The translations under genes and the position numbers were made by a program. From a virus, in IMG/VR virus record IMGVR_UViG_3300047548_000369, positions 1-21,844 of that record: DNA of 21,844 bases; one strand, written 5' to 3'. Shown here piece by piece: positions 677 through 12,934 of this stretch. Numbering within the stretch: the stretch's first letter is position 1; each line of letters opens with the position of its first letter. The notes under the pieces were generated by a model that was not told the origin of the DNA, did no database searches, and saw only the letters and a program-made list of their open reading frames with translations.

Positions 677-1155
677 TATTCCCACCATTCTTTCACATTA
701 AATGCCTGTGCTACCTGTTTTGGTTTGTAGTTGTCACATCGATGCTTGATATCGATTGGAATATATGAGCGTTGGCCTCCATTGCATTGCCAGCCCATAT
801 ATTCAACTCTTGCCCATCCGTTTTTGATTTTGACAATATCAAACATCCAGTGATTTGCGATATGGTTTTCTCGCCTGATTTTGTCGAACTGATCTGATGG
901 CATGTTGACCGTGTGCAGGTGCTGGGTCATGTGCTGGCACATGTTGCAGGTGATGCGATCATCATCGACCCAGGTGTCAGGATCTGCCAAAAAATGATGA
1001 CCCACCCCCCCTGTTGTTTTTTCCAGACATTTGGAGGACACCCCCCCATCCCTGCCAGTGATGGTGTGTGGATTTAAAACAACAGTAGGACCAGTGGTAG
1101 GTGTAGGCCTACTTTGCCTATGGAGGGCTAATAGTTGTTTTGAGTGGTGTTGCAT
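676..1155 (-). CDS. Cys-containing phage protein, function unknown
   Basis: This is a 159-residue protein I do not recognise. The first 45 residues are low-complexity, rich in Thr, Pro and Gly. The C-terminal part carries C70-x2-C73, C124 and C140, four cysteines that could hold one zinc ion. The spacing (CNMCQH then RCDNY) resembles the short phage zinc domain of form C-x2-C-x-H...C-x-x-[YF]. The same pattern is seen in the 61-residue protein at 6939. It lies between the primase-helicase and VRR-NUC genes and shares a TAATG junction with the latter. Upstream lies a 126-base AT-rich gap with repeats. The stretch 1083-1091, inside its first codons, carries one copy of the repeat. Confidence 0.7.
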   Translation of the reverse strand: MQHHSKQLLALHRQSRPTPTTGPTVVLNPHTITGRDGGVSSKCLEKTTGGVGHHFLADPDTWVDDDRITCNMCQHMTQHLHTVNMPSDQFDKIRRENHIANHWMFDIVKIKNGWARVEYMGWQCNGGQRSYIPIDIKHRCDNYKPKQVAQAFNVKEWWE

Positions 1156-1281: not shown

Positions 1282-3636
1282 CTACAGGTTAAATTCATTG
1301 AACTTTGGAGCGACCAGATACTTGGACACGCCATTGCTTTTGCGAGTTGCACACCTTTTGTCGTTCTTGAGCATAGTACCTAGTCGGGTAACGTCCCCCC
1401 GTGATGGGTTGCGCAAACCGATGTAGATTGCCACATCAGTTGATGTTAACCAGACCCACTTGGATTGATCCGCGGACCAATTCAAACCTGTTTCGAGCAT
1501 CTCGCGCACAGGATCGATGGCTGTGAATTTCTCGTTGTATTCGTTGAGTTGCATCAGTTGGTCTTCATCCAAAAACCAAGATTCGCCAACATCGTAGAAG
1601 GTCTTGACCTCGGCCCAAAGCTGCTGCATGTCGATCTGGTGCTTGTGGTTTATGTCTTCACAATAGATGGTCCAATATCGACGGTTGCCTGTTTGGTCAG
1701 ATAAAAATCCTTCATCATTAACCGATGCGAAAAATACAGTTTGCCGCGGTTTGCTGGTATTTTTTCGATCATATGGCAAACGATATATATCGCGATCTGA
1801 TGTCAAAAATGATTTGAGCGCCGCAATATCTGATTTTCTAAATGTCGCATCCAACTCGCCAAGCTCAACCATCCAATAAGATGTGGCCTGCCTGATTGAA
1901 TCAGGATTATCTGGCCGCAGTGTCATGCCATCTTTTGCCAGTGCTGATGTTGCCAAACTCTTAAACCAAGATGTCTTACCGATGCCTTGCTTGCCCAGCA
2001 GCGTGAGCACGCCATGGGCGCTGACCCCATTGTGTTGATAAAGTGCAGCCACAGCACCGATGGCCCATTTGCGCATCATCACTTCTTTGAGTGATCTATT
2101 GGTGGCTGTAATGGTGTCCATCCATGACTGGATGCGGCTGACACCATCCCACGGTTTTGATTCGATCCAGTCAATGGCAGGATGAAAAGGGTTTTGCAAA
2201 GAAAGCTGCTTCATGTATTCGGCCACAAGTGCATGTGGCAGACCTGCCAATATTGCTTGGCTAATCATGTGAGTGACCGCGGCGTTGGCTTCATAACCGC
2301 GCATAACCTCAAGACCTGGCACGTAGGCCACCTCTTCACCGGCCATGACATTCATGGAATATTTGACCCCCAAGAAACGCGACAAGGCTGCAAAGTTTTC
2401 CAATGTGTTCAGGGGTTTTGGCGTTTTGCCCCTCGACATATGCGGCCAAACCAATTCTTTGGGTCTTTCAACCACTGCGACTTGATCTGGTGATTCGGGC
2501 TCGGCCTGTTTGTCTGTGGGCTTTTGTGACTTGATTCCAAAATCCTCTTGGGCTGAGACTTTGACGTTTTGATAGGCGATGGCGTGCCGCCCTGTCTCAA
2601 TGGCATATGCCTTGATGGCCTCGGCCACCTTGCCGCCGTGTTCAAAATGGCAGTAAATGTCAAAGGCATCGCCAAACCGCCCAGACTGGCATTCGCTGCC
2701 CAAACCCGCCGCGGCATCGGATTCTGAAAGGCTGACCCAGTGGCCATCGTCATATGCTTTTGTGGCGTAGGTGCTGCCCGTTTGGTAAACGCTGCGCCAA
2801 CTGTTGCCGCGGCCTTTTTCATACTGGCATGACATCAGCACTTGGTCGAGTGAGTTTTCTTTGTTGAATGCATCAATGATGCTGCTGTCATCGCCGCGGA
2901 TGGCCTGTCGTGCGGCCATTCTTATCTTGGCATCAGCCGCGGCTTGCTGGGCTTGTTCAGCCTGAAGGGCATCACGTTTCTTGATGATCTTGACATAGAC
3001 GCTGACAGCGCCAGCCGAGGGGACAAGGGCTGGACCGTCTTGGCGTTTGCTTTTGTAAAACAGAGGCTTGCCATCGGTACCTCGGTGCTGTGGCGGGACA
3101 TTTGGCAGATAAACGGGCTGCCCTGCTCTGGCCAGTGAGTGATCGACCTTAACCCCCAATCGCTCCTCGGCTGCATCAAAAAACGCTCTTTGGAGCATTC
3201 GCCATGTCTCAAAGTTAACACCTTTGGCAAGTGGGATCATGCCGCGCCATTTCTTGTTTGACTCGCTGGCGCTGCTTGAACTGTAGATCAGCATGGCGGT
3301 GTCATCGCCTGCAAAAATCTTCAGAGCATCTTCAACATCATCAAGGCTTACATTGCCCTGATCGACATCGAGGGCAAGCAGGTGATAAGTGCCATGTTCC
3401 TCTTGGACGCTGTGGGTGCGTGCGTCATGCTCGATGTAAGACGATGGGATGATGGCCAGCGCGTCTTCTTTTGGCTTTGCACCAGGCTCAAGGGCAAAGA
3501 TGTCATCGAGTGTGATGGTCTTGTATTTTTGGCCAGGATTGTTCTTGAGTGTCAGCCGTGAACCTTGTATCAGCAAGACCTTGGGCGATTCTCTGACCAA
3601 TCCTTGCGCTGTGGTGGATGCGTTGGATGTGGTCAT
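1282..3636 (-). CDS. Primase-helicase: prim-pol-like domain plus VapE-type ATPase
   Basis: This 784-residue protein combines primer synthesis and DNA unwinding. The N-terminal third looks like an archaeo-eukaryotic primase/prim-pol domain: LALD90-V-D92, the Ser-rich strand at 119-124 followed by R131, and D165-H166 with the AGQPVYLPNVP stretch that follows the active site in phage primases. Residues 485-660 match the virulence-associated E (VapE, DUF5906-like) superfamily 3 helicase region: the WDGVSR entry at 495-500, Walker A GKQGIGKT 547-554, a Walker B-like WMVELGELD near 587-595, and a TGNRRYW sensor/arginine finger near 648-654. The start is preceded by GGGAAG and overlaps the upstream stop as ATGA. 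It is the replication initiator candidate of this phage. Its own primase may reduce reliance on host DnaG. Confidence 0.88.
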   Translation of the reverse strand: MTTSNASTTAQGLVRESPKVLLIQGSRLTLKNNPGQKYKTITLDDIFALEPGAKPKEDALAIIPSSYIEHDARTHSVQEEHGTYHLLALDVDQGNVSLDDVEDALKIFAGDDTAMLIYSSSSASESNKKWRGMIPLAKGVNFETWRMLQRAFFDAAEERLGVKVDHSLARAGQPVYLPNVPPQHRGTDGKPLFYKSKRQDGPALVPSAGAVSVYVKIIKKRDALQAEQAQQAAADAKIRMAARQAIRGDDSSIIDAFNKENSLDQVLMSCQYEKGRGNSWRSVYQTGSTYATKAYDDGHWVSLSESDAAAGLGSECQSGRFGDAFDIYCHFEHGGKVAEAIKAYAIETGRHAIAYQNVKVSAQEDFGIKSQKPTDKQAEPESPDQVAVVERPKELVWPHMSRGKTPKPLNTLENFAALSRFLGVKYSMNVMAGEEVAYVPGLEVMRGYEANAAVTHMISQAILAGLPHALVAEYMKQLSLQNPFHPAIDWIESKPWDGVSRIQSWMDTITATNRSLKEVMMRKWAIGAVAALYQHNGVSAHGVLTLLGKQGIGKTSWFKSLATSALAKDGMTLRPDNPDSIRQATSYWMVELGELDATFRKSDIAALKSFLTSDRDIYRLPYDRKNTSKPRQTVFFASVNDEGFLSDQTGNRRYWTIYCEDINHKHQIDMQQLWAEVKTFYDVGESWFLDEDQLMQLNEYNEKFTAIDPVREMLETGLNWSADQSKWVWLTSTDVAIYIGLRNPSRGDVTRLGTMLKNDKRCATRKSNGVSKYLVAPKFNEFNL

Positions 3637-3851
3637 TTTTCTTCCCTATTCTGAAAGAAAAATCGCAAACTCATTGCTTTCGCTGAAGACTCATAAAGAG
3701 ACACATAAAATTCATGCCCGTTTTCACAAGTCCAATACGCATCTTTTTCTTTGTCTTGTGTCATTCGATGGCACGCGCAAACTGGGCAATTGACTGAAAT
3801 CACATCCTTTAAATTGATGTTTATGTGATGCACTGTGGTGAGACTTGCCAT
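3633..3851 (-). CDS. Small zinc-ribbon protein
   Basis: This is a 72-residue protein with C22-x2-C25 (plus C27) and C42-x3-H46, a one-zinc ribbon. The end is basic and aromatic. It overlaps the primase-helicase start by four bases (ATGA), so the two are translationally coupled, and it may act with the primase as a template-binding accessory. That role is inference, since zinc ribbons of this size also occur as regulators. No good ribosome site is seen at ATG 3851; the nearest GGAG is about 14 bases upstream. It is the first gene after the branched hairpin at 3875-3947, so its expression may depend on read-through or on a promoter hidden there. Confidence 0.7.
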   Translation of the reverse strand: MASLTTVHHININLKDVISVNCPVCACHRMTQDKEKDAYWTCENGHEFYVSLYESSAKAMSLRFFFQNREEK

Positions 3852-3865
3852 ATCTTTTGGACTCC

Positions 3866-3947
3866 AAATAAAAAGCCCAGGTCAACCCTCCTCTAGCGGT
3901 GCTAGTTGGCAGACACGTGAAACTCGTGCAGGAGGGTTGGCCTGGGC
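3866..3947 (-). terminator. Long branched hairpin with T-tract (terminator or attenuator)
   Basis: The arms 3875-3892 and 3930-3947 are complementary over 18 positions. The only imperfect pair, 3882/3940, is G-U in a + strand RNA and A-C in a - strand RNA. Inside are two further hairpins: 3893-3905 (CTAGC-GGT-GCTAG) directly against the outer stem, and 3914-3928 (CACG...CGTG, 7-base loop). Together they make a three-way junction. On the - strand the outer stem is followed by TTTTTATTT (3874-3866), as in a rho-independent terminator. It lies between the DUF6378 gene and the zinc-ribbon/primase genes, so it could separate or attenuate the two blocks. Confidence 0.75.
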
Positions 3948-4000
3948 CTGTTTCATAAATCGCTGCCAAGCGATGCCGGAACTTTACACCAATTTTTAGA

Positions 4001-4261
4001 TCACTTCAATCTGTTCGCCACCAGAGTTGCATATCCAGCGATGTCTGCCCATGAATCCACATAGTTTGGATCGCCGTTGATGATGCGTGCCATTTTGTGG
4101 CAGATCATGTCAAGAGCCTCGCGCTGGTCATAGTTCAAATTGAGCCAATCGTCATTCATGTGCAAGACTTTTTTCAGTGCCTGGGAGGTGGCGGCATTGT
4201 CTTCAAAACTGCCATAACGCTGGCCGCGCTCTTGGAGGATGTTGTCGATGTGCATGGTCAT
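4001..4261 (-). CDS. DUF6378-like phage protein
   Basis: This is an 86-residue protein. The pattern ERGQRYGSFEDNA, then a Gln-Arg-Glu helix (YDQREALDMICHKMARI), then DPNYVDSWADIAGYATL is what I know as the DUF6378 family, short all-helical phage proteins resembling the MazG-like all-alpha fold. The acidic and His/Lys positions (E, D in WADIAGY; KMARI) would suit a nucleotide-binding helical bundle, but no function is established. The start at 4261 is chosen because it overlaps the upstream stop by ATGA and has GGGA just upstream. A longer in-frame start at 4339 would overlap the HTH gene by 80 bases and is unlikely. It precedes the branched hairpin. Confidence 0.8.
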   Translation of the reverse strand: MTMHIDNILQERGQRYGSFEDNAATSQALKKVLHMNDDWLNLNYDQREALDMICHKMARIINGDPNYVDSWADIAGYATLVANRLK

Positions 4262-7718: not shown

Positions 7719-7994
7719 ATGATCGACACCTATTTCGACCGTGCATCTTGGCCCACCTGGATGACCCTAAATCAGCAGTCGCCGCATTGGGAAGATCCCC
7801 GATATTTTGACCATCAGCTTTATTCGACCATGATCGCCCGCAATGTGGCCGAGGCCAAAGCCAATGTGCGCAGCCTGATTAACAACAGGGTGTCTTGGCA
7901 TCGCGTTGAGATCGGCAATGGAATCACCTTGGGTGATCCCGAGAGCGTATTCAAGCCCGATGGCACATTCAAAACAGAATGGAAATTTTCATGA
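7719..7994 (+). CDS. Phage protein, function unknown
   Basis: This is a 91-residue protein I do not recognise. It is rich in Trp (W11, W14, W24) and ends with a beta-like stretch (VEIGNGITLGDPESVFKPDG). The central part is a helix (TMIARNVAEAKANVRSLINN). No cysteines, signal or membrane segment are seen. It starts 2 bases after the glutaredoxin stop, without an obvious close ribosome site, so it probably depends on coupling. It ends in an ATGA overlap with the next gene. Context places it at the entry to the DNA-handling block. Confidence 0.65.
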   Translation: MIDTYFDRASWPTWMTLNQQSPHWEDPRYFDHQLYSTMIARNVAEAKANVRSLINNRVSWHRVEIGNGITLGDPESVFKPDGTFKTEWKFS

Positions 7995-11122: not shown

Positions 11123-11701
11123 ATGTCAACACGATTTGTAACCGGGAAAGTCCGTTTGTCTTATGCCAAGATCATGCGTCCAGGCAAAAACGAAATGAAT
11201 GGCAAGAATGAATATTCTGCTGTCGTGCTTGTGCCCAAGACCGACACAGACACGATCAATGGCCTCATGGCTGCGGCCAAGGCTGCCATTGACAAGAAGT
11301 TTGGTGGCACGCCGCCCAAGGGCTTGAAAAACCCATTGCGCGATGGCGACACATTCATCAAGGATGATGGCAGCCCAATGGGTGCTGAATACAAAGGCCA
11401 TTTGTTCTTCAACTGCAAGATCGATGCTGACCGAAACAAGCCATCGATCATCGACATCAATGGCCGCGAACTGATCGATCCTGATGCTGTGGTGTCTGGT
11501 GATTACGTCAAATTGTCAGTCAATGCTTATGCTTACGATGCTGTCGGCAATAAGGGTGTGGCCTTTGGCCTGAATAATGTCTTGCTGGTGGCCAAGGGTG
11601 ATCCACTTGGCGCACCTCGCATGAGTGCAGCCGATGAATTCGGCATCGGTGGTGGTGGCGCTCAGGCCCCCGCAGTGGCCGATGATGACAATTGGGCTTG
11701 A
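11123..11701 (+). CDS. DUF2815 ssDNA-binding protein
   Basis: This is a 192-residue protein. The opening VTGKVRLSYAKIMRPGKNEMNGKNEYSAVVLVPK, the repeated GLMAAAKAAIDKKFG helix and the HLFFNCKIDADRNKPSIID stretch are the DUF2815 family, phage single-stranded DNA-binding proteins with an OB-like fold. The end is Gly-rich and then acidic (AVADDDNWA), a tail like that through which ssDNA-binding proteins contact partners. It likely coats single strands made by the helicase and nuclease just upstream. It has its own leader: TAAGGA upstream of ATG, and a palindromic operator 36 bases further up, so it may be transcribed separately at high level. Confidence 0.87.
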   Translation: MSTRFVTGKVRLSYAKIMRPGKNEMNGKNEYSAVVLVPKTDTDTINGLMAAAKAAIDKKFGGTPPKGLKNPLRDGDTFIKDDGSPMGAEYKGHLFFNCKIDADRNKPSIIDINGRELIDPDAVVSGDYVKLSVNAYAYDAVGNKGVAFGLNNVLLVAKGDPLGAPRMSAADEFGIGGGGAQAPAVADDDNWA

Positions 11702-11931: not shown

Positions 11932-12461
11932 CCGATTCCCAAAAACGAAAAAAACGAACAATCACGATTCAAACGATTGAAAGCCTCATGCAGCGCACCA
12001 GTGTTGAAGGCGACTGCATCGAATGGTCTGGTTATGTTTATGCTGGCAATAATCCCCAGGTAAGTCACGCTGGAAAGATGGTCGCAGTTCGCAAGTTGGT
12101 GATGTTGCTCAATGAGCGCAAAGTGCCTGCTCGGGCATATTACAAAACCACATGCGGCAATGATTTGTGCGTCAGGCTTGAACACATAAAAGTTGTGGAC
12201 CATAAAAAGCACATGCTGATGATGGCAAAAAATGTTCGGCATAACGCACCAACCAGGATCGCAAAACTGCAAGCCGCAGCCATTGGCCGCCGCAAACTGT
12301 CTGATGACCAGGTAAATGAAATCGTCATGTCTGCTGGGTCTAGCAGAGAATTGGCCATTGAGTATGGAGTCAGTAAAAGCACGATTGCAAAAATCAAAGG
12401 TTATCGTGCCAGGCGCGTTGTCAGTACCAGCTTGAACCCGTTTGTGGGCTTGATGCGATGA
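11928..12461 (+). CDS. HNH-like zinc domain fused to helix-turn-helix, probably not a nuclease
   Basis: This is a 177-residue protein. C30-I-E-W-S-G-Y, then C76-G-N-D-L-C81-V-R-L-E-H86 correspond to the WEWTG...H-x-C-D-N-P-L-C-V-N-P-E-H text of phage HNH homing-type nucleases. The zinc ligands are kept, but the histidine normally two residues before the first C (the metal-activating His) is replaced: YYKTTC. Residues 124-158 form a helix-turn-helix (LSDDQVNEIVMSAG-SSRELAIEYGV-SKSTIAKIKGYR). It may therefore be a DNA-binding regulator derived from a homing nuclease rather than an active enzyme. It is coupled by ATGA at both ends. Confidence 0.72.
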   Translation: MTDSQKRKKRTITIQTIESLMQRTSVEGDCIEWSGYVYAGNNPQVSHAGKMVAVRKLVMLLNERKVPARAYYKTTCGNDLCVRLEHIKVVDHKKHMLMMAKNVRHNAPTRIAKLQAAAIGRRKLSDDQVNEIVMSAGSSRELAIEYGVSKSTIAKIKGYRARRVVSTSLNPFVGLMR

Positions 12462-12934
12462 AGTTGAAAACCACATACAGCCTGATGGATGAATTGCTGG
12501 CATCCAAAGATCAGCCTCTTTCAGAGGAAAAGATCAAGCATCAACTGTCGATGATGCAAAATGGGATGAATGCGTTGGAGAAATCACCAAACCCCACCGA
12601 ACGTGACTGGGAGGTGGTCAGCGATGCCGTGAATATGCTCGAAACGATGGTGGAACTTGGAGCCTGTGAGGATGGCTCTGGACTGTTGCAAGACGCAATC
12701 GAGGCCATGGCATTGGCAGGGCAAAGACACACACAGCATGGCGTGATTCGCCTCGATGCCAAGGGCATTGTTACCCTGCGTGCAGTTCTGGAAGATTACG
12801 CCATGGTCATCCAGGCGATGTCGGCCAGATCGATGATCCATTGCCACCGAGTCACCGAAAAGAAGATGCACGACATCATCAAAGGCAAGGCAAGGCCGCA
12901 AGATGTTGTTGTAAAAAAGACACGCAAAAACTAG
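12458..12934 (+). CDS. Phage protein, function unknown
   Basis: This is a 158-residue, almost wholly helical protein with no signal, membrane segment or metal site. It starts MKLKTTYSLMDELLASKDQP and has long helices (KHQLSMMQNGMNALEK, RAVLEDYAMVIQAMSARSM) and a basic end (KKTRKN). I do not recognise it. The helical content and methionine-rich faces suggest a partner-binding protein. The start is fixed by the ATGA overlap with the HNH-like gene. It ends the second coupled block; the next gene has its own promoter candidate and leader. Confidence 0.62.
   Translation: MKLKTTYSLMDELLASKDQPLSEEKIKHQLSMMQNGMNALEKSPNPTERDWEVVSDAVNMLETMVELGACEDGSGLLQDAIEAMALAGQRHTQHGVIRLDAKGIVTLRAVLEDYAMVIQAMSARSMIHCHRVTEKKMHDIIKGKARPQDVVVKKTRKN

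Follow-up and report, generated by a model that had tools for sequence, protein, structure and literature searches.

Our analyses support an apparently undescribed family of phage RNAs of about 110 bases. In the window, by which we mean the whole 21,844-nucleotide stretch analysed (IMG/VR virus record IMGVR_UViG_3300047548_000369), a branched hairpin before the primase module is one half of a larger element of the leftward strand (about 3974-3866). The first-pass annotation placed the hairpin itself correctly at 3866-3947, while the upstream half (3974-3948), complementary to the inside of the hairpin, was missed, and with it the two-part pairing of the leader. We consider it on balance probable that this leader RNA combines an intrinsic terminator with a c4/CI-like antisense RNA directed against its own 5' end, and thereby exerts feedback on early genes. 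It is probably an RNA switch setting the amount of phage replication and recombination gene products.

Structure of the element in the window

Read along the minus strand, the element comprises a sigma-70-like promoter, a hairpin exposing the segment b, a single-stranded segment a, the outer stem, a U-tract, a ribosome-binding site and a start codon (Table 1). Within the outer stem follow a hairpin carrying a' in its loop, the unpaired b' and a second hairpin; a is complementary to a' and b to b', in colinear order. The element lies in a leftward operon, behind a 60-aa HTH ORF and a DUF6378 ORF and before a 72-aa zinc-ribbon-like ORF and the primase-helicase gene. Neither a tRNA nor a known Rfam family was found at this place in the window.

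The fold of positions 3947-3875 bears out the 18-position outer stem enclosing two hairpins, as well as the leftward orientation of the T-tract, both described in the first-pass annotation. The stem consists of 7 bp, the mismatch C3940.A3882 and 10 bp, and the hairpins have 5 bp each, with loops of 7 and 3 nt; as had been claimed, a + strand version would carry G.U at the position of the mismatch. The description of the structure as having almost no unpaired bases needs correction at the junction, where 7 bases (CTGCCAA, 3912-3906), important for the pairing described below, are unpaired. The minimum free energy (MFE) of the 82-nt fold is -42.9 kcal/mol, against a mean of -22.1 for dinucleotide shuffles (z -7.1; 0/200). 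As in intrinsic terminators, in which a G+C-rich stem directly precedes a U-tract, a GC-rich lower stem of 7 bp runs directly into TTTTTATTT, and this arrangement is kept across the family.

Table 1. Features of the element and its operon in the window (all on the minus strand)
Feature	Position	Strand	Basis or remark
-35-like hexamer TTGAAG	4004-4009	-	Sequence; spacing to the -10 is 17 nt; weak when taken by itself; shares bases with the DUF6378 ORF end
-10-like hexamer TAAAGT	3981-3986	-	Position conserved in the family
Predicted transcript start	about 3974	-	
Target hairpin AUCGC-UUGGCA-GCGAU	3959-3974	-	Helix 1 covaries
b, UUGGCAG	3969-3963	-	Complementary to b'
a, UGAAAC	3950-3955	-	Complementary to loop a'; swap test 0/100,000
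Outer stem, 5' arm (7 bp, mismatch C3940, 10 bp)	3930-3947	-	Fold z -7.1; covariation
Hairpin 1, foot pair G3929.U3913	3913-3929	-	Covariation
a', GUUUCA, in the loop of hairpin 1	3923-3918	-	
b', CUGCCAA, unpaired junction	3906-3912	-	Covaries with b in L016, the L308 copies, AH02 and Lbo240-yong2
Hairpin 2, CUAGC-ACC-GCUAG	3893-3905	-	Double changes in 4/4 pairs
Outer stem, 3' arm (mismatch A3882)	3875-3892	-	Same evidence as 5' arm
U-tract TTTTTATTT, terminator tail	3866-3874	-	Sequence; same place in the family
GGAG and ATG of the first gene	3865-3862; 3851-3849	-	
First gene, 72-aa zinc-ribbon-like ORF	3633-3851	-	ORF list; weak Pfam Zn_ribbon_RlmA
Second gene, 784-aa primase-helicase, VapE-like domain	1282-3636	-	Pfam PF05272, E 3.8e-54

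Relatives, covariation and genomic context

About 90 related loci (numbered L below) were found in uncultivated phages of IMG/VR through pattern and covariance searches. Three pattern scans were made, the third matching 97 stretches, 80 of them listed, and a covariance model, R1, was built from 23 loci. R1 matched all 56 newly listed loci at E-values, which are rough for covariance models, of 1e-11 or better, and additionally recovered L016 and another copy in L214, neither of which had been picked by the patterns; it also matched the + strand of the window, because the element is palindromic. Members occur in two named phages with a recorded host, Pseudomonas phage AH02 (L343:29519-29628; MZ501271.1), whose host is Pseudomonas koreensis, and Plectonema phage Lbo240-yong2 (L342:2995-3101; OP828577.1). 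Searches with the hairpin sequence returned L002 or chance matches only, the search for relatives of the 72-aa ORF gave only L002, and a scan of genome contigs gave two loci, both without the RNA. Under strict filters no R1 member was found in 398 Pseudomonadota genomes, where a loose DNA pattern matched at about chance level, nor was there any match in Methylophilaceae phage P19250A and several other named phages. When 14 family loci were compared with Rfam, no family was found at the element, a single match to a microRNA model falling below the cut-off.

In L002 the element is identical over about 120 nt, loops included, and the neighbouring 72-aa ORF is 74% identical in protein. L094 differs in the primase N-terminus and the neighbouring genes, yet the element is present with matched changes: two C-G pairs of the outer stem are replaced by U-A, one A-U pair of hairpin 2 by G-C, and a/a' changes from UGAAAC/GUUUCA to UGUAAC/GUUACA. 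Several copies may occur in one record. L214 carries two near-identical copies of the RNA, 11169-11280 (+) and 12407-12518 (-), in inverted orientation about 1.1 kb apart and with the same upstream sequence. The 41.7-kb phage record G420 (L308) has three copies, at 801-911 (-), 3510-3615 (-) and 7764-7871 (+), with three different a/b sets, each of which pairs best with itself.

Compensatory changes in relatives, proposed earlier as a check on the structure, are strongly present in the family alignments. With 23 sequences aligned without reference to structure, 94.7% of cells pair and covariation is 0.708 against 0.222 in shuffles, a signal destroyed by sliding the helix partners; with 56 distinct sequences aligned to R1, an alignment that leans towards the model, the values are 0.781 and 0.203, shuffle tests of this kind being inflated by relatedness among the sequences. 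All helices covary, with double changes in 15 of the 16 outer-stem pairs. The helix cells contain 158 G.U but only 6 A.C combinations when read on the minus strand, the foot pair of hairpin 1 is G.U in 56/56 members, and the outer stem is interrupted by a non-pairing position in 41/56. The excess of G.U over A.C, together with the kept G.U pair, argues for an RNA of the minus strand and against the DNA cruciform that had been envisaged for replication.

The pairing of the leader with the interior of the hairpin was assessed separately, the a-a' pairing not being part of R1. Across 36 distinct loops, the longest stretch of Watson-Crick pairs that a forms with its own a' has a mean length of 6.08, compared with 3.30 for swapped partners, and a run of 6 is reached by 81% of own loops and 1.7% of swapped ones; the observed sum was reached in 0/100,000 permutations. 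Because the search patterns prescribed b and b', these two were counted only in loci where that was not so. There b covaries with b': UUGGUCG/CGACCAA in L016, UUGGCGG/CCGCCAA and UUGGCCG/CGGCCAA in two further copies of G420, and UUGGCGG/CCGCCAA in AH02 and Lbo240-yong2. Within the GCCYTAG group, paired change of a-a' is fast, at 0.38 against 0.03 and 0.13 in the outer stem, hairpin 2 changing nearly as fast as a-a'. The end of a lies 0-3 nt from the foot of the outer stem in 56/56 members.

The surroundings of the element are similarly constrained. Ahead of the b hairpin, a -10-like hexamer occupies a constant position in all 63 distinct upstream regions, as opposed to 19-25/63 in control windows, and in 71/78 the distance from the end of the model to the start codon is 8-17 nt. 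Most of the downstream genes, called by eye and in a PHROGs scan of one representative, belong to replication or recombination; they include DUF1376/primosomal-like proteins, primases, helicases, HNH proteins and small ORFs preceding replication genes. Behind the element of Lbo240-yong2 comes a bet and exonuclease module, and in AH02 the element stands behind a ninB-like gene. Since a tyrosine integrase was found in only 1 of 33 carrier records, many of which are fragments, a role in lysogeny like that in P1 or P4 is not indicated.

Comparison with C4 and other regulatory RNAs

The closest likeness is to C4 antisense RNA (RF01695), which comprises P1/P7 c4 and P4 CI RNA, together with its target, c4-a1b1 (RF03163). 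In the C4 consensus, two hairpins are enclosed by a 17-bp stem; the loop of one hairpin holds a', and b' (UgCcAA) comes next, unpaired. The target presents b in the loop of a hairpin (UUUGGCAG), with a behind it, as the leader of our element does. The C4 match of P4 (CI RNA) spans 8507-8420 and that of the c4-a1b1/isrK target 8705-8615, ahead of the alpha primase. P4 CI RNA pairs with two such targets, leading to termination in the replication operon (PMC4825925), and P1 c4 blocks ant (PMC12197685). The two-part complementarity of a' and b' to a target is thus common to both; nevertheless, the order within the stem is a' hairpin, b' and extra hairpin in the element, whereas C4 has the extra hairpin first, then the a' hairpin and b'. 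Moreover, the target directly adjoins the element but lies some 150 nt away from C4, and the body of the element, unlike that of C4, directly precedes a U-tract; few of its carriers have an integrase. The C4 model, with which P4 scores 74.9 bits, matched neither the window nor any of the 14 family loci, even when E-values as high as 1 were allowed. Because this model fails and the hairpin order differs, we regard the element as a variant built on the C4 plan, outside the C4 family.

Two further Rfam families are of interest here. IsrK/SeqA RNA (RF01394) is likewise a leader RNA with a b-hairpin-plus-a target and a terminator hairpin, but is devoid of an antisense body, whereas the element unites target and antisense body in one RNA. 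The int-alpA RNA (RF02996) occupies the same place in L011 (5271-5336) and L014 (4572-4637), between the DUF6378 gene and the primase gene, although its structure differs and neither model matches the other's loci at that place; there is no int-alpA match at the element in the window. A weak int-alpA match between the same two genes occurs in L013 (5280-5320), and another match in L310:1762-1828 (-). In L011 an inner ATTGAACCA of int-alpA looks complementary to GGTTCAGATGG at the primase start, as does TTGACC to GGTCAA in L013, and int-alpA may be an antisense regulator too.

A regulatory model, its alternatives and its implications

We propose that transcription would start at the b hairpin and that, while the 3' arm of the terminator is still to be made, the nascent RNA would pair b with b' and a with a', giving an anti-terminator form; once the 3' arm is made, outer stem and U-tract could form and transcription would stop. 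Within one molecule the two forms should be mutually exclusive, because only 0-3 nt separate the end of a from the foot of the stem, which measures 16-17 bp and bears the a' loop on its top. On geometric grounds, a would be unable to reach the a' loop, some 16 bp away, once the stem has formed, and its pairing with a' would therefore either exclude the stem in cis or take place in trans. The terminated RNA, of about 107 nt, would expose a' and b' and could pair with a and b of a new leader, freeing the a' and b' of the latter and favouring its terminator. A build-up of the RNA would shut off the downstream replication and recombination genes, which low levels would permit. Termination in vivo, readthrough, action in trans and feedback are what we infer from the features described above.

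Predicted folds of the nascent RNA are in keeping with the first steps of this scheme. Just before the 3' arm, b-b' is part of the MFE structure in 43/56 members and absent from it in 13/56, and a median of 6.5 nt of the 3' arm is enough for the outer stem to replace it. In the window, the nascent fold up to b' reaches -21.1 kcal/mol, whereas local folds alone give -15.1. At full length the terminator is strongly favoured, and the anti-terminator form would depend on kinetics, which lie outside MFE models. The earlier proposal of an attenuator before the primase operon is best retained as the reading with most support, to which the near-fixed, short distance from U-tract to start codon and the replication and recombination genes downstream now contribute.

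In a purely cis-acting attenuator, a-a' and b-b' would form the anti-terminator, the choice of form would be set by a protein, the speed of RNA polymerase or another signal, and the released RNA would be inactive in trans. Such an arrangement is possible but rather unlikely: it agrees with the nascent folds, with mutually exclusive helices that all covary and with a target directly adjoining the body, but the rapid paired diversification of a-a' and the three self-preferring sets of G420 fit intermolecular recognition better, a point that is suggestive only, and a protein-binding motif was not identified.

An improbable alternative is a trans-acting small or self-dimerising RNA with other phage or host mRNAs as its main targets, a and b serving dimerisation or turnover and the gene behind being a bystander. 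The near-fixed spacing to the downstream start codon speaks against a bystander, and no exact second two-part target was present among the matches listed, which held only the element's own complement and mismatched matches; on the other hand, the promoter-like box and the terminator of its own would yield a discrete RNA, in which, once the stem has formed, a and b pair only between molecules. More improbable still is an ordinary intrinsic terminator insulating the upstream operon. Although it would explain the stem and the U-tract, the covarying leader pairing, the conserved hairpins and the unpaired junction speak against it, as does the start codon, which comes about 12 nt after the U-tract and so leaves no room for a separate promoter.

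A DNA structure, either a cruciform or a replication origin, read by the primase was rejected as scarcely credible: despite the position upstream of the primase and the inverted repeats just behind the VapE-primase gene in some related loci, G.U exceeds A.C on one strand, a G.U pair is invariant and many members precede non-primase genes. The repeats themselves, of the type TCTCTACCCTA...TAGGGTAGAGA (L003:6169-6260, L004:6165-6456 and L006:6170-6259), are a possible replication origin. Equally hard to sustain is the put-like antitermination element suggested earlier, which, like put RNA of HK022, would act in cis on RNA polymerase and make it read through later terminators; this too is a structured RNA in an early phage leader, but here the stem passes directly into a U-tract, as a terminator does, and what is conserved is the complementarity of the element to its own 5' end.

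The attenuation of plasmid rep genes in pT181 and pIP501 offers a parallel to the feedback model: binding of an RNA shifts the leader from the anti-terminator form to the terminator. In those plasmids the antisense RNA is transcribed from the opposite strand, whereas that of the element would be the terminated leader itself. We suggest, tentatively and with less assurance than for the feedback model, that a terminator acting as antisense RNA against its own leader, so that each terminated molecule makes the next transcript terminate, is a new class of regulatory RNA. If so, early genes would be governed by a switch, on/off or copy-sensing, that reinforces itself and has a/b specificities that are orthogonal even inside one phage, and its users would largely be phages with no recognised tyrosine integrase.

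Our results add to phage gene control a strongly covarying RNA family absent from Rfam, which spans about 90 IMG/VR loci as well as a Pseudomonas phage and a phage infecting a filamentous cyanobacterium. They also extend the c4/CI antisense plan, described so far in a small number of temperate phages and satellites, to phages that mostly have no recognised integrase. If the feedback model is true, the element would be a compact, RNA-only switch whose specificity is altered by paired base changes, and mutual sensing by co-infecting phages, or by copies within the same phage, would become directly testable.
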